In this document: in pieces, positions 5,511-64,000 of the stretch
Layout of the letters: each line of letters opens with the position of its first letter
How positions within the stretch are numbered: position 1 is the first letter of the stretch
Assembly (NCBI GenBank): GCA_013180625.2
Contig: SNVD02003180.1
Coordinates: 109,264 to 173,263, forward strand
Direction of reading: 5' to 3'
DNA length: 64,000 bases
From: Boswellia sacra
Lineage: Eukaryota > Streptophyta > Magnoliopsida > Sapindales > Burseraceae
Notes under the pieces: model-generated
Database searches by the model: none
What the model saw: the letters and a program-made list of their open reading frames with translations, nothing else
Told to the model about the DNA's origin: nothing
Program-made: the position numbers and the translations under genes

Positions 5511-5933
5511 TTAAAATTCGATATAATTTTGCATTGAAAGTAAGGAAGAGATTAAAAAAAAAAACACTTGCAAATTCTTTAATGCAACATAAGTCACAAA
5601 TCTTTGTGGATGAAATTTGTTCCTATAACCCCACAAAATGGGAACAAAAATTATGGCCCAACTGTTTTTTAATTTTCTGTCATATATTTCTAAAACGCAA
5701 TAATTATTTGAAATTAAAACTAACATCAATATGTTGTCTATAGATGTAACAACGTTAAAAAAATTCAAAATTATAATTGAAGAATAACAAAGTTCACATC
5801 CATCAAAGATTATATAAAACCATATTTTCAGATAATTATTAGAACAAAAAAATAAAAAAAGAAGGAATCCACAAAATAGAGGCTTAGGAATAAGAGTGAA
5901 AAAACGGGGGAATGGCCGCATTAGAGGAAACAT
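5511..5933 (-). other. Unassigned 140-codon ORF retained in both duplicate copies (copy A)
   Basis: A minus-strand ORF of 140 codons has a near-identical partner at 15785-16183 in copy B. The deduced peptide is hydrophobic and aromatic-rich, with no family I recognise. Surrounding DNA identity is about 98% by eye over some 370 bases, higher than in the introns. ORF retention could therefore simply reflect local DNA conservation. Listed as possible coding sequence only; no splice or promoter context supports it. Confidence 0.2.
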
Positions 5934-8737: not shown

Positions 8738-9106
8738 ATTGTATTTTAGTATTTTAATTTCTATAGGACAATAGCGTTAGTTTACAAAATATCTGGATTG
8801 TGACGTGACTGGACGAAATCCAAAAAGGTAAGAACCCATGATCATGCACAAACTGAATTTAACTGCAGATAGACTCTTCATGACAAGAAATATTACAGAA
8901 ATTATTGCATCATCACATCCTCCGTCAGCTGAGTGACGACAGCCACTCCCAGTCAGAACGCGTTTGAAAGTTGGAGTGTGGAAGGAGAAAGCTCGTTAAC
9001 CCCAGCCGCCCCATTGTCATTCCCACACCTACTTTAACATAGATTATATGGGTTACTATTATTGTCACCGGAAAAGAATGAAGAAAAAAGACAAAGACAG
9101 AGACAA

Positions 9107-15784: not shown

Positions 15785-16183
15785 TCAATATAATTTTACA
15801 TTGAAAATAAGGAAGAGATTAAAAAAAAAAACTTGCAAATTCTTTAATGCAACATAAGTCACAAATCTTTGTTGATGAAATTTGTTCCTATAACCCCACA
15901 AAATGGGAACAAAAATTATGTCCCAACTGTTTTTTAATTTTCTGTCATATATTTCTAAAACGCAATAATTATTTGAAATTAAAACTAACATCAATATGTT
16001 GTCTATAGATGTAACAACGTTAAAAAAATTCAAAATTAGAATTGAAGAATAACAAAGTTCACATCCATCAAAGATTATATAAAACCATATTTTCATATAA
16101 TTATTAGAAAAAAAATAAAAAAGAAGGAATCCAAAAAATAGAGGCTTAGGAATAAGAGTGAAAAAATGGGGGAATGGCCGCAT
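15785..16183 (-). other. Unassigned 132-codon ORF retained in both duplicate copies (copy B)
   Basis: Partner of the ORF at 5511-5933. The middle about 100 residues are nearly identical, but both ends drift. Hydrophobic and aromatic composition; no recognised domain. Confidence 0.2.
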
Positions 16184-23754: not shown

Positions 23755-24480
23755 GGAATGTGACACATGAGTAATGTTCAATCAATTGGTCATATATTTC
23801 TCTAGAAATGTCCAAATGATGTGATTCTTGAGCCTTTGGAAAGCTTACTCAATTTATAACATTTTATATGTTTTAAAGAAATTCAAATTTCAAGTGTAAG
23901 GTCGTCCAAATCATCATGCAAGTTGAAAGACAAAAAGAAGCAGCGGACATGAGCACTGAATACTCTTTTGGACATATCTTGAGATACAAATATCCAAATC
24001 ACTTGATTCTTATGGCATTGGAAAGCTGACTTAATGAGGCACATTTCATATGTTTTGAATAAATTCAAATTTCAAATGGAAGGCGACATAATTGATATGC
24101 AAGTCGGTGGACTGACACAAGGAAGAAAAATCAACTCACATGAGCACCGAATGGTGTTTTGGCCATATCTTAAGATAGAGATATCCAAATTCTTTGATTC
24201 TTAATGTTTTGGAAAGCTTATTCAAATATGCATATCTTTTATGTTTTGAAGAAATTCAAATTTCAAACGAAATGCTGACAGAATTATCATTCAATTCGGT
24301 GGACTGACACAAGGAAGAAAAATCAAGTCACATGAGCACCGAATGGTGTTTTGGCCATATCTTGAGCTACAGATATCCAAATGACTTTATTCTTGATGCG
24401 TTGGAAAGCTTATTCAAATGTGCAGTCTTTTATGTTTTGAAGATTTTCAAATTTCAAACGGAACATTGACAAAAATGGCA
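23755..24480 (+). repeat. About 190-bp tandem repeats inside the solo LTR (nearly 4 units)
   Basis: The phrase GG(C/A)CATATCTT followed by ATCCAAAT...GGAAAGCTT...TTCAAATTTCAA recurs at about 23788, 23970, 24161 and 24353, with spacings near 182, 191 and 192. Units 3 and 4 share long identical stretches around GAGCACCGAATGGTG. Confidence 0.85.
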
Positions 24481-24767
24481 GACAAGATTACAGTTTTTAT
24501 GGTAGGCAAAAAATTTGGAGTTGGTGTCTTCACTTGATGAAGTTCATCCCATTTGCCTATAAAAGGAGCCCTTCTCCCATGCATTCAGCAAGAAGAGCAA
24601 GAAAAGCATCTATCAAGCAAAAAATAAGAGAAATATCAAGTCTAGAGAACTTTTATATTCTTTATCTACTCTTTGAAGAGAGTTGTACTTTTATTGTAAA
24701 AATTATCCTTGTTCTTGTATTGTGGTGAGAGTGAGATATTCTTGTAAAGGATAATAGTTATCCTTGA

Positions 24768-25092
24768 GAAGAACTCTTGGTGTGGTGTTATCAAAAGTTG
24801 AAGGAAGTTGCCTTGGTAAGGTTGTTCATCAAGAAGAACTCTTGGTGTGGTGTTATCAAGAGTTGAAGTAAGTTGCCTTGTTGAGGTTGTTCATCAAGAA
24901 GAACTCTTGGTGTGGTGTTATCAAGGTTTGAAGAAAGTTGCCTTGGTGAGTTTGTTCATCAAGAAGAACTCTTGGTGTGGTGTTATCAAGAGTTGAAGGA
25001 GTTTGCCTTGGTGAGGTTGTTCATCAAGAAGAACTCTTGGTGTGGTGTTATCAAGGGTTGGAAGAAAAAGTCTTGGTGAGGTTGTTCATCAA
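24768..25092 (+). repeat. 65-bp tandem repeat, five units, inside the solo LTR
   Basis: GAAGAACTCTTGGTGTGGTG starts at 24768, 24833, 24898, 24963 and 25028, an exact 65-base period. Each unit ends GTTGTTCATCAA or close to it. The array lies downstream of the TATA-like box, so it would be in the LTR transcript. Confidence 0.95.
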
Positions 25093-55839: not shown

Positions 55840-56125
55840 ATCGTAGTCGACGGGGAAGAAGACGAGTTTGTCGAGCCTCATCGCTCGATGCGTCAGATAG
55901 TCTCTCGACATGTCGAATGGTCATGTCAAATGTCAAGGGGTTGTGTCAAGTTTGTGCGTCGAGTGGAGTGTCGAACGTGTCGGTTGTCAGATGTAAATTT
56001 CGTCGAGTTCGTGTGTCAAGTATATGTGTCGCGTTAGTCGAGCGTCGATCGTCATGCATCACGTGTCGAGTTTATGGTCGTGTCGAGTGTCGAGTGTTTA
56101 ACATTGAGTTTCGTCCAGCTGTTTA
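55840..56125. repeat. CpG-rich GTCGA/TCGTGT-rich tract
   Basis: The motif GTCGAG or close variants recurs many times, with many CpG dinucleotides, in an otherwise CpG-poor, AT-rich neighbourhood. Short ORFs in several frames are composition effects. Function unknown; it adjoins the left end of the gypsy LTR at 56215. Confidence 0.7.
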
Positions 56126-56214
56126 GGTAGAAATGTCGTTTTTGTGACTTTTGTAAGCAATTTCGTAATAATTTTTTGTCCACGGACCTTATATCATATG
56201 TCTCTATCATGTAG

Positions 56215-57628
56215 TGATGCGTTCGAAACTAGCAAGTATACTAGTCGCACAAGTAATAAAGTGATGAGTAAGATATCGTTCCCACGAGGATTGATTCTAA
56301 TTGAATTTGTTATTTCCAGCAACAATTAACTAAATAGGTGGTTTTGTTGGTTGATTAACTAGATGAAAAACTGAATACTACGGTAATTAATGAATAACAC
56401 AATACAAACTTAATTGAAATGGGAATTAATCAATGATAGAAATCTGGTTAAGGGATCATTATCCACCATAAGATATGGATTTGCGAATTAATTGTAGAAT
56501 TATCATCCAATTGCACCATTGAAATTATCAACTGTAGATAACAATAAGCTCTGTTATCCCAATCTTTCCTTACTTTGTTGTTAAATAAAACAAGCTCTTT
56601 ATTTAATCTCTATCCATTAAACAACCTAGAACAAGCTCTCTAAATTTAATTCAATGGATGCATTACGCAAAGAAAGACAGGTTGATCTAAGCAATAAATA
56701 CACAAGCTCGGATTATTTAACTTAGGTTATATTCTCCAATTGCAATCTCTGATCACAATTTTGCTACAAATGATTAGAAATTCAAGACAATTACGGATCA
56801 AGATTTCTAATCTAGCAATAGAAAATATCCAGATTATAATCAGTTGGCCACCCAAATATAATCCAGCAAGCAATCATAAGCATTAAACATGGGAAAATAC
56901 AAGCAACTTCAATTAGAGAATTGTATAACAATTCCTTGCACAATCAATTCACAAAAACCATATCAAGGGCTTTGAAATCACCCTCAACCAATTCAGATTT
57001 AGTTATACATATTCAGATAGAATACAAATACAATACAATATGGAGACATTCCATAAAATGAGAGGGAAAGGGAAACTTAGCAAATTTGATGAAATCTATT
57101 AGGATTTGTAGTTCTTCCTCTTTCCAAGCCTTCAATCTCCTTCAAGAACTCCAAGAGATGAGAGAAATCCAAAAATGCAGCCTCCTCCCACGTTTTTCCT
57201 CTTCAAGTTGTCAAAATAAAACCCTAAAATGTGTTTAAATACTCTGCTACAGTAACTTGCTACAGTGCCCGTATTATACATGCTACAGTGCTTGTGGAAT
57301 TATATTTCTATACATCTCACACTGTTTTGATTACAACTTTTGGTACACTGAATGGATTATAAACCGTAAATTTCTCCAGAAAATAGACTTCGAGAGCTTT
57401 CCAACGGTATATAACATGTCATCGGGTTCATTGTATATCAATACAATTAAATCCGAGAAGATCACTGCTAGCAGAGGTGAAAATGAAGGGTTTTACTCCA
57501 TTTTTGTGCAAGTTGCTCCAAAACTCCTACAAACATCAAAACACACAAAAACATAAAAATACCACGGACTATAGCAAAGAAACATGGACGAATTGATATA
57601 AAAGTAATACATAAATAGACACCTATCA
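56215..57628 (-). mobile_element. 3' LTR of the non-autonomous gypsy-like element, 1,414 bp
   Basis: On the minus strand it begins TGATAGGTGTC directly after the polypurine tract and ends TTCGAACGCATCA. It contains a repeated GCTACAGT phrase near 57246-57285 and the ACTTGTGCGACTAGTATACT and CTCGTGGGAACGATA phrases common in Athila/TAT-like LTRs. The predicted 5-bp target duplication is TGTAG at 56210-56214. The 5' LTR lies just beyond the right edge, so LTR identity and the second target copy cannot be checked here. Confidence 0.8.
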
Positions 57629-57645
57629 AATTCCCCCGCACTTAG
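57629..57645 (-). promoter_or_regulatory. Polypurine tract of the gypsy-like element
   Basis: On the minus strand, AAGTGCGGGGGAATT directly precedes the LTR start TGATAGG. Position and composition are typical of the family. Confidence 0.8.
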
Positions 57646-58319
57646 ACTTTGCTAGTCCTCGAGCAACTAAAATGATATGAAACAAAACTAAACCGAAACA
57701 GAATCAAAGAAAAATTAAAACACACACAAATGCTTCAACTTGCAAATAGGCCTCAATGATTGTACTTAATTATAACCCAAGGAAAACTTCAAAATAATGC
57801 ACTTGATCAACAATTTTATCTCAACTATTAGTTTCGCTTCACTTCAATTCCTCAAGTGTGTGTGTGTAGAGCCATTCTCACCTAATCACTTGTAACCCGG
57901 ATGAGTTTATGCTTAAAAATGAATCATATTTAATAGTGAAGATGTGTGTATAAATGAACTCCATAGGCTGCTTTTCAAGTCACTCTCCACTAATGTAGAC
58001 ATGTACAACACCAAGGATCAAGTAGGACTTTATTAAGCTTGTAACGTTTGGCTTGGGTGAAGGTATGATCAAGGATAATAATTTGGCTTAAATCACCCAC
58101 AAACACATAAATCATTCAAGATTATGTAGAGCTCAACCCTATAACACACTTTATTTTAATTCACCAGGTTACTCCCCCAAACTTATTTAGAACACTCAAT
58201 CTTTTTTTTTTTTCTCTTCTCTTCTTCTTCTTTTTTTTGTAGAAAACAAAAGAAACTACACCCCCACACTTTGTTGTTTCATTCTTTTTAAGAACAGCCA
58301 AGGGTATAAAACTCTTTTT

Positions 58320-58400
58320 CTTTTCTTTTTTTTTTTAACTGCAATTCCACTCCCCCACACTTAAACAATACATTGTCCTCAATGTTTAAGTACGTGGAAG
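58320..58400 (-). other. Gypsy-family 3' internal signature
   Basis: On the minus strand, ACATTGAGGACAATGTATTG is followed by TTTAAGTGTGGGGGAGTG. This phrase is typical of the region between pol and 3' LTR in Athila/TAT-like elements. It bounds the foreign block on its downstream side. Confidence 0.7.
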
Positions 58401-59621
58401 ATAAGTACAGATTTTTCTCTCTCTCTTTTTTTTTTACAAACTTTATAAAACTCACTTGCATTGCTCATGGCACAATCCAACCTCCTCTAACTTCCCAAAA
58501 CCCCAGAAAACAAAATAAAAAAAGTTTTTTTTTTTTCCCCCCCAAAATGTAATTGCGAATGATTTATATGCTCATAGGTAAGGGATAAACTGTTTGGAAC
58601 AAATTCAATTGAGATTAGGAAATCTTTTAGTGAGGTAACAAAGAAAAAGGTTTACAGAGACTCAAAGGGGTAACTAGGGATCAATTTTAGTCAAGGTTGG
58701 CTCTTAGGCTCAAACGATCCAAAGAGGCCTAAATCATTTCCCTAATGTTGCAGCAGTCTAGGATTTTTCCCTCGAGTGACCATCAAACAAGTTCTATAAT
58801 CTATATTAAAATCTTGAAAAAAAAAAAACACTTAAATTACATAAACTTTCTCTAAGTAAACAATACTCATGATATGGCTCGGTGCTCATTTGGTGCAAGG
58901 AATCAAAGGTAAGCAAAGCTAATGATTTTAAGCACAAAGATCCATGCATCGTTTATCATTTTCCAAGAGTTATTCTTAATTCAATCATTATCTTATCATC
59001 GACCCACAAAATGCAAGAAAAGAGGTACGTGGCTTTGTTTCACCTGAGTCAAGATTGTATATTTCAACAATCCTTAGGACCAGTAGCCCGCAGACTTAAG
59101 GTTTCCAGCCTATATACCTTGATTATGAAGGAAAAAACAAGAAACAAGACAATTCAAACAACATGAAATAAACAAACTACAGATTTATTGAGAGAGAATG
59201 CGTTTCAAGAGTTAAGAAAACCTCATATTCTGCCATTCTCAGGTTTTTCCACAATGTTTTTTTTTTCGAATCGAACTGATAAAGACAAAAACACACAACA
59301 ACTCGAAATTACATAAAACTAAACTTACTCAGAAAATAATAAAGTCCAACAAATCAGCAAACGCAAACAAGTCAGTTAGAATGGATCTAAAAAGTTTAGA
59401 ATTTAGCCTCCTTATTCAGCCATTATGGATTAAAGAAATCCAGAATGCGTTTCAAGAGAACTTGAACTTTTTAAGCCACCACTCTAAAAAACGAGATTAG
59501 AAAATATTACCTGGGACGAAAGAAATAACCTGAAAAAGCTCAAAAGAAATAACATGAAAACTCTCAAATAAACACAATAAAAAGAAAGTAAACAAAAACG
59601 AAGCAAACCAATAGATAGAGA

Positions 59622-60272
59622 TTACAGATAGAGCGTTAAATCCAGTCTACGCCTTTTATTGCCTTCTCCAAACCAATCTATCCGAGCCGTTGTTGGATCA
59701 GGCGAATAGACGAATTCTTGGAGTTTATCAATTAACTCCCCTGCAGTTGAAGCTGTAACCAGGATTTGCCTCGCCGACGGTGAGATGAAGTTTTTTTCTA
59801 CAGCTTGATCAAGAAAGGACAACAAACCATCAAAAAAATTATTGACATTTAACAAACCAATGGGTTTTTTATGGATGTTTAGCTGTGCCCAAGAGGTGAT
59901 TTGAAATATCTCCTCTAATGTGCCATAACCACCAGGTAAAGCTATAAATGCATCGGACTTAACAATCATATGTGCAATACGCTCATGCATGCTAGAGACT
60001 TGTAACTCTTCCCCGATTGTGTTTCCTACGATATCTCGCACAGCTAATGGTTTAGGGATAATGCCGAGAACTTTACTTCCTCCCAAGGATACAGCTGTCG
60101 ACACACACCCCATTAACCCAAGACTACCCTCTCCATAAATCAAATGAATACCCCTCGCAGCTAATGTCCTACCAAGATCAAGAGCTGCTGTTGTTAACTC
60201 TCCATCTTTTCCAAATTGCGATCCACAAAATACGCATATATTTTGGAATCGCCGAATTGGTGTTTTCTCCAT
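59622..60272 (-). CDS. LOG: LOG-type cytokinin riboside 5'-monophosphate phosphoribohydrolase, intronless, inside a retroelement
   Basis: A single uninterrupted ORF of 216 aa. LOG enzymes release active cytokinin base from the nucleotide in one step, usually in cytosol and nucleus. Family features: NICVFCGS (11-18), LGLMG (51-55), MHER with the key arginine at 98, and the signature PGGYGTLEE (113-121); length matches typical plant LOGs. Differences: usual YGGGS reads YGEGS (Glu48); the lysine normally after Arg98 is Ile99; the usual VITWAQLG reads ITSWAQLN. A basic KRRR (206-209) precedes the C-terminus. Plant LOG genes normally have several introns; none remain, which suggests origin through an RNA copy. 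It lies between two gypsy-family signatures, so it is inferred to be captured cargo. Activity is uncertain because of Glu48 and Ile99. Confidence 0.92.
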   Translation of the reverse strand: MEKTPIRRFQNICVFCGSQFGKDGELTTAALDLGRTLAARGIHLIYGEGSLGLMGCVSTAVSLGGSKVLGIIPKPLAVRDIVGNTIGEELQVSSMHERIAHMIVKSDAFIALPGGYGTLEEIFQITSWAQLNIHKKPIGLLNVNNFFDGLLSFLDQAVEKNFISPSARQILVTASTAGELIDKLQEFVYSPDPTTARIDWFGEGNKRRRLDLTLYL

Positions 60273-60377
60273 TTCTACAAGTGCTCTAACCTTGTGTAAG
60301 ACAATGATGCACGTTAGGTAATATGCTTTTCAAGTGCAAGACAGGTTCTAATAATGACATTTGAAAATATGGAGAAT

Positions 60378-60390
60378 GGATATATACACA
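60378..60390 (-). promoter_or_regulatory. TATA-like box upstream of LOG
   Basis: On the minus strand, GTGTATATATCC, about 110 bases before the LOG start codon and downstream of the G-box array; a plausible core promoter. Confidence 0.5.
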
Positions 60391-60425
60391 CGTAAAACTC
60401 TCAAATTTGACACATGGGGACATAA

Positions 60426-60735
60426 TTTCGGTGGGGGTTGCTCGATGCAGATTTATCGCCCCGAGATTTGAAAAAATAGATATGCTTTCAGTTGGGTTTG
60501 ACAAAACCTCCACACTTGTCGCCCACGTGTGCATGAAAAATGGAGATAAACTTTCGGTGGGGTTTGAAAAAAACAGCCACACTTGTCTCCCACGTGAAGC
60601 ATGACAATTAGAGATATACTTTCGGTGGGGTTTGACAAAACTGCCACACTTGTCTCCCACGTGAAGCATGAAAAGTAGAGATATACTTTCGGTGGAGGTT
60701 GACAAAACCTCCACACTTGTCTCCCACGTGTACTT
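60426..60735 (-). repeat. 67-bp tandem repeats with phased G-boxes upstream of LOG
   Basis: CACGTG occurs at 60524-60529, 60591-60596, 60658-60663 and 60725-60730, an exact 67-base spacing. Each is set in GCCCACGTG or CTCCCACGTG with CCACACTTGTC and TTTCGGTGGGG alongside. A degenerate fifth unit without the G-box adjoins near 60426-60463. CACGTG is the core site for bHLH and bZIP transcription factors. Placement just upstream of a TATA-like box and LOG suggests a promoter array; this is inference. Confidence 0.9.
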
Positions 60736-60955
60736 ATGCCATAGGGTAGTCATATGGTTTGTCAAAAAGAAAACTTGAAATTAAAACAAACAAAATCAAC
60801 AAACAACAACAACACAAAAACAACCTTGATAATCAGATCAAACGAAACAAGAAAAAAAATTCTACAACAACAACACACATTCAAATATACAAGTAGTTGT
60901 GATTGTGGCTCACATCTTCCTCTTGTTTTACGTCCAGTAACTGCTGAAACGCCTT

Positions 60956-61153
60956 CTATGAGTCGGGGATTTGCTTCCCATCCAGTTTTCTTATAAACTG
61001 GCAAACAGGGTCGTTTTTAGTCAGATTCCCTAGACTATAGCACTGCAATTCATCACGAAATTGTGTCCATAGATTAAGCAATTCACGCTGAACAAGTCCA
61101 CAAGAATGTGACTCGAGAGTTAACAAAACATTATCCAGAGACTCATTAATCAA
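60956..61153 (-). pseudogene. Continuation of the captured unknown coding sequence
   Basis: Minus-strand reading INESLDNVLLTLESHSCGLV, then QRELLNLWTQFRDE. It follows the ORF at 61205-61747 in the same direction after one stop and about 17 codons without stops. It looks like more of the same host-derived protein, cut by a stop. I do not recognise the family. Confidence 0.4.
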
Positions 61154-61204
61154 ACCATTCTTAATAAATGAAAGTTTATCTTCTCTATTCCTGGACGCAA
61201 AACC

Positions 61205-61747
61205 TCATGAACGACAAGTCTGTTTACAATTCCATCTAGCACATTTATAACATACTTGTAACCTTTTCGCTCTTCGCCTCTTGGCGTAGTAGCTCTTTCC
61301 TAGACCAAGCATGTATTTTGCGAGATTAATGTCCGGTTCACCGGACAATCTTACCTTGGCTTCGATAAGCCATCGGATATCAGCAGGCACATTTAGGAGC
61401 ATCAACGCCCAAAGTCTAGTCATCCGTACTTTATAAATTTTAAACACAGCATTTTGAGGAAGTGAAGAAAAATATTTACGAAGGTTTGACAAAAAGATAT
61501 CGGCATCCATTGAAGAGGAGAAAAGAAGAGATATTACCAATAATGCGATCGAGTTTGTTTTTCTCCAAGATATGCACGTTTCAAACCTTTGGCGAATGAC
61601 TTCAACTTCCATTTGGATGTTTCCACAAGCTACTGCACAAATGAGCTCAAAGCACAGAGTAATCAAATTAAACAAAAGAAAGGAAAAGAAAAGAGCAAAA
61701 ACGAAACTAAAGACACATAAAAGAGATAACAACACAATAGCAAACAA
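61205..61747 (-). CDS. Unrecognised ORF with cysteine-rich tail in the captured block
   Basis: 180 codons, of which the first about 45 are hydrophobic and look like translated intron: a pyrimidine-rich stretch ends TTTGTGCAG just before GTGGAAACATCC. The credible coding part starts near MEVEVIRQRFETCISWR, continues as NLRKYFSSLPQNAVFKIYKV and WALMLLNVPADIRWLIEAKV, and ends in a basic, cysteine-rich tail (RLQVCYKCARWNCKQTCRS). It does not look like gag, pol or an env-type retroelement ORF. Joining it across the apparent intron to sequence upstream gives a stop in the frames I tried. Treated as a captured, perhaps partial, host gene of unknown function. Confidence 0.5.
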   Translation of the reverse strand: MFAIVLLSLLCVFSFVFALFFSFLLFNLITLCFELICAVACGNIQMEVEVIRQRFETCISWRKTNSIALLVISLLFSSSMDADIFLSNLRKYFSSLPQNAVFKIYKVRMTRLWALMLLNVPADIRWLIEAKVRLSGEPDINLAKYMLGLGKSYYAKRRRAKRLQVCYKCARWNCKQTCRS

Positions 61748-61914
61748 AAGTCAAAAACAAGTAAAAAATATAAAAACAAATAAGACAGATGGCAAAGAGA
61801 GATAAACCTGATCAATTTGATGGCCTATGAAAGGAATCTCCTCGAGACACAAAAATCGATCATTATTACCTCATTTTTTTTTCTTTTCTTCTTTTTTTTT
61901 ATTTTTCAAAACAT

Positions 61915-61950
61915 TGGGTTGCCTCCCAATAAGCGCTTGGTTTAACGTCC
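61915..61950 (-). other. Gypsy-family post-pol signature
   Basis: On the minus strand, GACGTTAAACCAAGCGCTTA then TTGGGAGGCAACCCAATG. This phrase follows integrase in Athila/TAT-like elements. Here it comes immediately after the truncated pre-RT ORF, marking the internal deletion of pol. Confidence 0.75.
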
Positions 61951-62373
61951 TCAGCCCGACGTTGGTTCCATCATGGGAGGATCCAATCTCCGCTGTGCTT
62001 CACTAATGGGCTTGGATCCTTCTTCCAACAAGATAGGGTCCATGCATATGGTTGGGCGTTGGATGTTAGCAATCGTCCACCCAATAGCTATTTTGTGATC
62101 TGTAAGTATTCGGACGAGTTTCTCTTCTTGTATTCGTGCAAGGCCCATTTCTATTATAATTGGCAAATGATCATTCTCACTCAAGAATCCATGCCTCAAA
62201 TGATCTGGAAGAAGCTTAAGCTCCAAGGCAAGGGCTGTCATCACAGAAGGAAGAATTTTCTCATTAGATAAAGGAAATTGAATGTATGAAACATCATACC
62301 TATTTGTGGTTATTGCGATGGTCTCATCTAAGCTTGTCACAACTTCCTCCATTTCTTTGGACACTTGTATCAA
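61951..62373 (-). pseudogene. Pre-RT linker of gypsy pol, truncated at the RT start
   Basis: 140 codons with the linker pattern between protease and RT: LALELKLLPDHLRHGFL, VRILTDHKIAIGWTIANIQ, ILLEEGSKPISEAQRRLDPP, MME. In full elements the RT domain starts right after this. Here the reading ends in PTSG and a stop, followed by the post-pol signature. RT, RNase H and integrase are missing. Confidence 0.85.
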
Positions 62374-63935
62374 AATTTCTGACTCTTAGAATTTTCTGTC
62401 CCTATGTGCTCATTAATAGCTATATCCAATCCATTCTTGCGAGTTAACTCAAAACAATGTTGTGGCAGAGAATCAACAACGTCAACTGCAAAAACAGAAT
62501 GTAAGTCACTAGAGTACCTCATTGCCTCAAAGATATTGAAACATATCACCTTGCCATCAAACTCTATGATGAGAGTGTCATCACGAACATCAATCTTGGT
62601 TTTAATAGTTTTCGAGAATGGTCTCCCCATAAGAATCGGTGTTGGATTAGGAGATGTCTCATCCTCTATTTCAAGAACATAAAAGTCTACTGGGAAAAGC
62701 AATTGATTCATCTGCACAAGCACATCTTCCACAACTCTTTTGGTATATGCATTAAAACTATCAGCAATTTGAATGGTAATACCAATTTCCGCAAAAGGTC
62801 TAAGATTTAAAGAAGCATAATAGATATGGCATGTGAACGTACCTGGATCTTTGCACTTTGGAGGAATTTTCCTTTGCAATACAGCTGAAACATCTTCCCC
62901 CACACTTACTTTCTCATTTCTTTTTAACTTTCTTTTGCTGGTGCATAACTCCTTGAGACATTTTGTATAATGAGGTACTTGTTCGATAGCATCCAGAAGT
63001 GGTATATTTACCTCGATTTTGTGAGAAGTTTCCAGGATTTCTTGTTCTTGTTCCTCCTTTTTCGATTTTGCAAATCTACTAGGAAAAAGTGGAGGAGAAA
63101 CATATGAAGGAATGGGAGTTATAGGATTTACCTGAGAAGTCATTGTTTTGTTCATGGTGGAAGTGGTGTCATCTCCTTCATCAGTTTGTGATTTCTTTGG
63201 CAGGACATCTAATTGCTCTTCATTTTGCAAAGTTATCGCACAAGAATTCTCTCTTTGATTGATCATCGTTTGACAAGATAATTCTTCTGAGCCTTGGCCC
63301 TCGAATTTGCTCATGCTAGGGGCCAATTGTCCCATTTGATTTGCCAGGTTTTGGATACTTGCCCCAGTTTCCTGCTGGAATTGCAGTGTGTTAGTGGCAA
63401 GTGCATTAACAATGTCCTGGAGAGACATACCTGAGTTTTGTGAAGCTGGTTGCGGTGCTGGATGTGGCATTGGTGGTGGTTGCATTTGAAATGGTTGCTG
63501 CAGTCTAGGTTGATTGAAACCTTGTGGCCGATTTGGTATGGCATTTGGGGCGATTGGTTGATGATTCCAGCAATTAAAATTAGGGTGATCTCCCCATCCG
63601 GCATTGTAAGTATTAGAGAAGGAATCATACCATTGCCTTGGTTGTCCTGGAAATCCACCCATGGCATTGGCTCGTTCCATATATTCTTCTTGTAAAGTTG
63701 GATACATGTCGATTGGATGCTCCATCGTAGAATATACCCCACCTTCATAAGATTTTTGCATATCTCCTACAGCCATGTTTTCCACAAGAGAGGTTAGCTC
63801 ATAAAGTTGTTGTTCAATGTTCGGAGTGCTTACCTCATTTACTCTCCATGGTACTTGTGGCTCAAATCCGCAACTGAATTGATAGAAGTTTACTGCCATG
63901 TTATCTAAACACAAACAATCAGAAGAGAAAAACAA
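62370..63935 (-). CDS. Gag/protease-like ORF of non-autonomous gypsy element
   Basis: 521 codons; the better start is the methionine at 63897-63899 (MAVNFYQF). It keeps the gag C-terminal region (QQLYELTSLVENMAVGD; FPGQPRQWYDSFSNTYNAGW; a Pro/Gln-rich stretch). The positions that normally carry knuckle cysteines are Gly or Tyr (about 65-78). The core capsid domain before it is absent. A protease-like region follows (IPPKCKDPGTFTCHIYYASL...LRPF; VDFYVLEIEDET; PILMGRPF), but the usual DLGA catalytic stretch is not there. It overlaps the next ORF by 4 bases in another frame. Long and open, yet lacking key sites: either recent decay or a retained non-catalytic role. Confidence 0.85.
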   Translation of the reverse strand: MFFSSDCLCLDNMAVNFYQFSCGFEPQVPWRVNEVSTPNIEQQLYELTSLVENMAVGDMQKSYEGGVYSTMEHPIDMYPTLQEEYMERANAMGGFPGQPRQWYDSFSNTYNAGWGDHPNFNCWNHQPIAPNAIPNRPQGFNQPRLQQPFQMQPPPMPHPAPQPASQNSGMSLQDIVNALATNTLQFQQETGASIQNLANQMGQLAPSMSKFEGQGSEELSCQTMINQRENSCAITLQNEEQLDVLPKKSQTDEGDDTTSTMNKTMTSQVNPITPIPSYVSPPLFPSRFAKSKKEEQEQEILETSHKIEVNIPLLDAIEQVPHYTKCLKELCTSKRKLKRNEKVSVGEDVSAVLQRKIPPKCKDPGTFTCHIYYASLNLRPFAEIGITIQIADSFNAYTKRVVEDVLVQMNQLLFPVDFYVLEIEDETSPNPTPILMGRPFSKTIKTKIDVRDDTLIIEFDGKVICFNIFEAMRYSSDLHSVFAVDVVDSLPQHCFELTRKNGLDIAINEHIGTENSKSQKF

Positions 63936-63979
63936 AGAAAATATGAATCAACAATGAAAACAAAATAACAAATCGATTA

Positions 63980-64000
63980 GAAAATCAATCCCCGGCAACG
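63980..64000 (-). promoter_or_regulatory. Primer-binding site, tRNA-Asp type, at window edge
   Basis: The last bases, ATCCCCGGCAACG, match the 3' end of plant tRNA-Asp without its final six bases. On the minus strand this reads CGTTGCCGGGGAT. The 5' LTR of the element should therefore begin within about 10 bases beyond the window. Confidence 0.75.

Follow-up and report, generated by a model that had tools for sequence, protein, structure and literature searches.

Extra open reading frames (ORFs) are frequent in plant retrotransposons, and most of them have no known function. Genes of the LOG family of cytokinin-activating enzymes are among them: a 2011 abstract by Steinbauerova et al. is said to name two Athila-like elements with similarity to LOGL4. 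That study is cited in an article (PMC9289625) whose available part reports that Ty3/gypsy consensus sequences of Citrus sinensis and C. clementina, and that of Populus trichocarpa when the authors' filter was dropped, contain the YgdH domain known from LOG proteins; extra ORFs of plant retroelements have also been reviewed (PMC7264820). Here we describe a LOG-bearing element of Boswellia sacra found in the window, by which we mean the 64,000-base stretch that ends a 173-kb contig (C1581, positions 109264-173263, in a 639-Mb assembly), the last base of the window being the last base of the contig. Positions 56215-64000 hold the greater part of a minus-strand Ty3/gypsy element of the Athila type. 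An initial annotation, made from the sequence, had considered a LOG cargo element to be new, a claim that the Citrus and Populus cases overtake. LOG cargo in gypsy elements is already known, and what appears to be new here is a partner gene, encoding a zinc-finger protein, together with the selection acting on both genes.

Several described systems resemble this element in part. The Citrus and Populus elements are likewise Ty3/gypsy elements with a LOG-family ORF besides gag-pol, but the available part of their description makes no mention of a zinc-finger partner, of selection on two genes, or of forms lacking reverse transcriptase (RT) and integrase (PMC9289625). Athila elements of Arabidopsis that lack pol are likewise non-autonomous, with purifying selection on their remaining ORFs and recombination between families; as far as the accessible text goes (PMC2410132), they keep gag and an env-like gene, whereas the element described here has a near-neutral gag/protease remnant and keeps LOG and a virus-like zinc finger instead. 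Gypsy elements of orchids also contain an accessory enzyme, with a 2-ODD (AlkB-type) domain, and AlkB occurs in flexiviruses too; however, the enzyme and the lineage (Ogre-like, with a tRNA-Arg primer) are different, according to the portion available of PMC9289625. Among the papers listed by searches of the open-access literature we saw no report that pairs LOG with a gene resembling those of nucleic-acid-binding proteins (NABPs) in a retroelement. The Calypso element has an env-like gene. Diaspora and Calypso, from the Athila clade in soybean, share with our element the tRNA-Asp primer site a few bases past the long terminal repeat (LTR) and an Athila-clade gag-pol; Diaspora is without an env-like gene, and the accessible text mentions no LOG/zinc-finger cassette for either of them (PMC1142308).

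The LOG gene of the window is a 216-codon ORF at 59622-60272 (minus strand) of the cytokinin riboside 5'-monophosphate phosphoribohydrolase family, with a Pfam Lysine_decarbox match (6.5e-39) and the PGGxGTxxE motif. Its partner, accessory ORF 1 at 60956-61510 (minus strand), encodes a basic zinc-finger protein of 184 residues; the initial annotation had correctly placed LOG within a foreign stretch of the element, and this second ORF, inside the same stretch, went unnamed. Selection was measured as the ratio of non-synonymous to synonymous differences per site (pN/pS) among 20 fetched copies and the window, aligned to copy L024, with ranges from a codon bootstrap. The 20 copies, fetched with 9.6 kb each, belong to the top 40 matches to LOG DNA in the genome, so that they contain LOG by construction. 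The ratio was 0.162 for LOG (0.116-0.254; 21 copies), where the initial annotation had proposed to look for purifying selection, and 0.199 for the zinc-finger ORF (0.131-0.309; 19 copies), as compared with a neutral expectation of 0.74-0.78 given by random placement of the LTR substitution spectrum. Values for other parts of the same copies were 0.622 for the gag/protease remnant (0.539-0.725; 18 copies), 0.697 for the spacer read as codons (0.508-0.979; 21 copies), and 0.70-0.78 for the 3' LTR read in three frames (20 copies). LOG and the zinc finger are under strong purifying selection, and the gag/protease remnant is near neutral.

The ratios changed little when the sample was narrowed to the 18 copies with a shared deletion junction (LOG 0.159, zinc finger 0.184, remnant 0.622, LTR 0.711) or to the 16 that also lack the gag capsid (0.163, 0.182, 0.643, and 0.682, respectively). 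Within these 16, variants present in a single copy were near neutral, as expected after insertion (0.63 for LOG and 0.64 for the zinc finger). Variants shared by at least two copies gave 0.10 for LOG (28 synonymous, 9 non-synonymous) and 0.05 for the zinc finger (23 and 4), alongside 0.60 for the gag/protease remnant and 0.83 for the LTR. The remnant's 0.60-0.64 is slightly below neutral, and some past constraint may have acted there. The selection on both genes indicates that the lineage that continued producing copies needed both proteins; moreover, their retention while the copying genes of the element decayed or were lost suggests that the element exploits them to propagate itself.

The non-autonomous state of the window's subfamily follows from a common deletion. 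An identical junction, removing RT, RNase H, and integrase, is present in 17 of the 20 fetched copies and in the window, with a stop at the next codon in one of these; the junction stretch was not found in L026 and L039, and L031 retains pol sequence at this place. The capsid part of gag lies within the fetched stretch only in L033 and L034 (that of L031 sits in L043). The common junction therefore indicates that the subfamily descends from one deletion, with loss of gag too, and the window copy does not have the full gag-protease-RT-RNase H-integrase order. A relative on contig C1363, made up of L043 and L031, is bounded by LTRs on both sides; it contains gag and pol pieces in several broken frames, and after them come the zinc finger and LOG. 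Its Pfam matches comprise the gag capsid (PF03732, 5e-18) and RNase H (PF17917, 4.7e-10, above the cut-off), whereas the integrase core (3.4e-7) narrowly misses its cut-off and a protease match is also below its own; the RT piece and the rest of the integrase, which had no match in a Pfam scan of the L031 pol pieces, were named by eye. A Rhamnella protein model nevertheless runs from this integrase end on into the zinc finger.

The cassette is abundant, with at least 150 places for LOG and at least 150 for the zinc finger in this genome. In the LOG DNA search all 40 scored matches (the best 40 of 3976 unscored candidates), the window's included, were full length with at least 96% identity, which excludes chance as the origin of a LOG inside the element. 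An LTR probe of 586 bp likewise gave 40 scored matches out of 40 with at least 97% identity, again including the window's (best 40 of 2379 unscored candidates). With a Reevesia LOG protein as query, each of the 150 scored places matched over at least 213 residues, 14 of them with internal stops (best 150 of 14,098 candidates); for the zinc finger, 87 of the 150 scored matches were identical to the query across all 184 residues (best 150 of 13,990 candidates). The LOG frame has 216 codons in 11 of the 20 fetched copies, among them L026 with altered last residues, and two further frames stop at codon 211. Upstream of LOG, a whole or fragmented zinc-finger ORF is present in 18 of the 20 copies and in the window (not in L026 and L039), its full 184-codon frame being found in 5 of the 20.

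These copies have the structure of LTR retrotransposons, with two LTRs, a primer-binding site (PBS), a polypurine tract (PPT), and target-site duplications; the window shows the 3' LTR, the PPT, and part of the PBS, and copies elsewhere show both LTRs and the duplications. Two LTRs longer than 1.2 kb (1.41-kb LTRs) occur in 13 of the 20. An exact 5-bp target duplication, read from the flanks, accompanies 10 of these 13 (none is exact in L029, L037, and L042). The PBS TGGCGCCGTTGCCGGG, which we take to be the end of tRNA-Asp, lies ~6 nt after the LTR in 11 of the 13 and differs by a single base in L030 and in L036. The Athila assignment draws on this tRNA-Asp primer site just past the LTR. Divergence between the two LTRs, by which alone the copies were dated, ranges from 0.006 (L028, the youngest) to 0.073 (Kimura two-parameter distance, K2P). 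Much of what the initial annotation foresaw is seen here: the 5' LTR, absent from the window, lies at matching distances in the 13 copies; LOG stands in the same order and spacing across many contigs; and the many full-length matches, in copies with LTRs, agree with an intronless LOG frame that was carried and multiplied through the genome. Separately, copy L032 appears to be nested in another LOG-bearing copy, LOG pieces of opposite orientation flanking it (1-192 and 8939-9045).

In a tree of 68 LOG proteins, one branch with 100/100 support splits 47 element-type LOGs (7 from this genome and 40 chosen from 120 listed) from 21 cellular LOGs (20 chosen from 120 listed, plus the LOG8 chain); for the database proteins the label "element-type" comes from the search that found them and not from LTRs seen. 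Named members of the element-type clade are from Xanthoceras, Melia, Populus, Reevesia, Diplodiscus, Pterospermum, Rhamnella, and Rehmannia, so that the clade presumably spans several rosid orders and at least one asterid. Among 147 columns conserved at 95% or more in the 21 cellular rows, the element clade conserves 54 by the same threshold and has a different consensus in 49. The motifs kept across the clade are GGG and GLMG (GGGxxGLMG), the MxxR arginine, and PGGxGTLEE. At residue 48, in the GGG motif, 44 of the 47 element-type rows have Gly; Glu occurs in the window copy and in Rehmannia P0072, and the position lies outside the stretch covered by P0117. This genome also contains at least two further deeply diverged LOG lineages (L044 and L045), at a synonymous divergence (dS) above 1.2 from the window's. 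Between the deeply diverged lineages (dS 1.2-1.5) the ratio of non-synonymous to synonymous divergence (dN/dS) is 0.14-0.16, and one pair at dS 0.62 gives 0.31. The capture of a host transcript suggested by the initial annotation is, as a recent event, not supported, given the separate clade, the coexistence of deeply diverged lineages, and the conserved partner gene that travels along.

The unbroken 184-residue zinc-finger ORF of L024 matches Viral_NABP (1.7e-10, 41.7 bits, cut-off 23) and Carla_C4 (3.1e-5, 24.3 bits, cut-off 20.9); in the shorter frame of the window Carla_C4 (24.3 bits) passes its cut-off and Viral_NABP (22.2 bits) does not. The NABPs of Carlavirus and other Betaflexiviridae share with this ORF both matches and the placement of a zinc-finger-like cysteine cluster after a basic stretch; however, they are encoded by viruses, whereas the zinc-finger ORF sits in a retroelement with no other viral gene seen adjoining it. 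It is likely that the ORF is related to the flexivirus NABPs, and any transfer could have gone in either direction. An endogenous flexivirus fragment was considered and rejected, given that no other viral gene was seen beside the ORF and that a single scan of viral contigs, with the alignment of the zinc-finger family as query, yielded no relative that could be confirmed.

Relatives of the zinc finger in databases numbered 151 at an E value of 0.01 or better, 120 of which were listed, and among those listed the ones named by organism all came from plants (Populus, Xanthoceras, Rhamnella, Gossypium, and Citrus). An alignment of 37 members has 19 invariant columns, two cysteines included. Some protein models join the zinc finger to its neighbors in the element: in Rhamnella one model (P0193, 6e-37) fuses an integrase end to it and another (P0194, 1e-32) joins it to LOG, and in Gossypium it is joined to a LOG end (P0235, 3e-7). 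Four pairs of LOG and zinc-finger proteins on equal-sized contigs (8723, 4511, 2425, and 2128 bases) hint at the same pairing, the counts of pairs in other species being those of protein records only.

We see about an even chance that this is a non-autonomous Athila-type element, copied with the proteins of its relatives, which keeps a zinc-finger and LOG cassette that raises its own transmission. The element is present in high copy number and has no RT, RNase H, or integrase, nor, within the subfamily of the window, a gag capsid; the cassette sits between what used to be pol and the 3' LTR. Helpers would supply the gag capsid, RT, and integrase. Going by its family, LOG would release active cytokinin in the cell that expresses it, favoring dividing or meristematic lineages, and a cell pushed towards division or meristem fate would leave more new element copies in its descendants. 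The zinc-finger protein would bind RNA and blunt RNA silencing, which could shield the RNA of the element, or handle the element's own RNA. Most likely, host cytokinin and RNA silencing are the routes by which the pair benefits the element, functions that we infer for both proteins. More broadly, and here we are doubtful, a clade of plant retrotransposons may long have carried a pathogen-like kit, consisting of a virus-type silencing suppressor and a cytokinin-activating enzyme, with which it manipulates hormone state and silencing such that the cells where it is active divide and transmit its copies, the kit outweighing replication genes that can be borrowed. Defective transforming retroviruses, which carry a growth gene and depend on helpers, offer a parallel.

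A number of observations weigh against a cassette that serves its present carriers. In the window copy the initial annotation's intact LOG holds as regards the open 216-codon frame but not as regards the conserved glycine 48, replaced by Glu, and the zinc-finger ORF has an in-frame stop at codon 102. The AlphaFold model of the zinc-finger protein is poor (mean predicted local distance difference test score, pLDDT, 54.7), and Foldseek with this model found no match among viral structures at E 0.001; in its ranking, to be taken as a hint only given the model, 12 of the 14 top viral proteins are, by our own assignment to family, presumably flexiviral (the other 2 are unnamed), and most of the 12 are called nucleic-acid-binding protein or RNA silencing suppressor. 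The copies were selected by LOG DNA similarity and not at random; this choice should lower synonymous and non-synonymous differences alike, and the zinc finger was not a selection criterion. The sole pol-bearing relative seen (L043/L031) has broken frames, and there was no working helper among the copies examined.

Distances between copies also count on this side. Across five segments in 18 copies they correlate weakly (Mantel r -0.07 to 0.42), the highest r, for the zinc finger with the LTR, being reached in 14 of 999 permutations. The LOG of L031 is at a distance of 0.0353 from the deleted copies, which are 0.0346 from each other, and for its 3' LTR the values are 0.0591 and 0.0669. Given these weak correlations and the closeness of the L031 LOG and 3' LTR, recombination probably mixes the copies; the cassette may be refreshed in this manner, with part of the constraint imposed in pol-bearing relatives. 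In its full form this alternative, to which we give serious weight without expecting it to prevail, holds that selection acts in pol-bearing relatives that need the cassette and that the deleted copies seem constrained through exchange of 3' halves by template switching. Recombination between autonomous and non-autonomous Athila elements in Arabidopsis, reported in the accessible part of PMC2410132, agrees with it, whereas L031 is more distant from the deleted copies than these are from one another in the zinc finger (0.050 vs 0.031) and the spacer (0.090 vs 0.060), the comparison for L031 covering these two parts, LOG, and the 3' LTR, and it is the single pol-bearing relative among the 20 fetched copies. 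Wherever selection acts, the cassette seems to have a function for the element family.

The other explanations concern LOG itself. We regard it as rather unlikely that the LOG-like enzyme now hydrolyzes other N6-modified nucleotides, for instance those released when methylated RNA is degraded, or works on the nucleotide pools that feed reverse transcription: the 49 of 147 cellular-conserved columns with another consensus in the element clade would suit such a change, as would the RNA-demethylase domain of the orchid gypsy elements (in the available part of PMC9289625), whereas the retained GGGxxGLMG, MxxR, and PGGxGTLEE motifs speak against it. Passive cargo, in which a transduced host LOG merely hitch-hikes in a recent burst, is improbable; some copies are indeed young (L028, as dated above), but pN/pS lies far under the neutral controls from the same copies, LOG is conserved between lineages at dS above 1.2, and traces of the cassette occur in other plants. 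We see a negligible chance that a retroelement landed independently next to a host LOG locus; we found nothing in favor of this and rejected it, since order and spacing are the same on many contigs and the LTRs and target duplications of other copies lie outside LOG.

For extra ORFs in plant retrotransposons, the interest of this cassette is that the two here have recognizable relatives and are under strong selection. As this selection is seen in copies without replication genes, the question is narrowed to whether LOG makes cytokinin and whether the zinc finger suppresses silencing; if both functions are true, this would be a case of a retrotransposon manipulating a plant hormone. There may be a consequence for annotation as well, in that some catalogued plant "LOG genes" (in clusters of up to 327 members) could be element genes, the element context having been seen for few of them.

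The rest of the window copy agrees with the initial annotation of a gypsy-like element with a PBS, a gag/protease-like ORF, a truncated pre-RT linker, a PPT, and an LTR, all of which are borne out by the sequence. On the minus strand the order is a part of the PBS, the gag/protease-like ORF, the truncated linker, the zinc-finger ORF, a 67-bp tandem repeat, LOG, the PPT, and the LTR. The contig stops inside the PBS, at base 64000, so that the 5' LTR is missing and 12 nt of the tRNA-Asp-type PBS remain at 63989-64000. An ORF of 509 codons (62370-63899) holds the C-terminal part of gag and a protease-like remnant; nothing in it matches the gag capsid, and the longer ORF of L024 matches Asp_protease_2 weakly (0.0009, below the Pfam cut-off). 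The pre-RT linker (61951-62373) is truncated at the deletion junction (~61964-61966) that other copies share. Between the zinc-finger and LOG genes, ~3.9 units of the 67-bp tandem repeat occupy 60469-60730, and several other copies give repeat-type off-diagonal matches. The PPT, AGTGCGGGGGAATT in element sense, lies at 57629-57642, next to the 3' LTR of 1414 bp (56215-57628), whose counterparts pair with a 5' LTR in the 13 copies noted above; all these features are on the minus strand. Beside the LTR, TGTAG at 56210-56214 is a candidate target-site duplication: copies elsewhere have exact 5-bp duplications, as the initial annotation anticipated for this site, and in the window TGTAG is seen on one side only, its partner falling past the contig end.

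The sequence that received the insertion is rich in short repeats of the GTCGAG/GTGTCAAG type at 55840-56130, immediately beyond the 3' LTR. Farther from the element, tandem arrays are formed by 191-bp units at 23806-24463 and by 65-bp units at 24767-25092 (91% matches). Finally, similar open frames of 140 and 132 codons at 5514-5933 and 15788-16183, both on the minus strand, are perhaps copies of another repeat.

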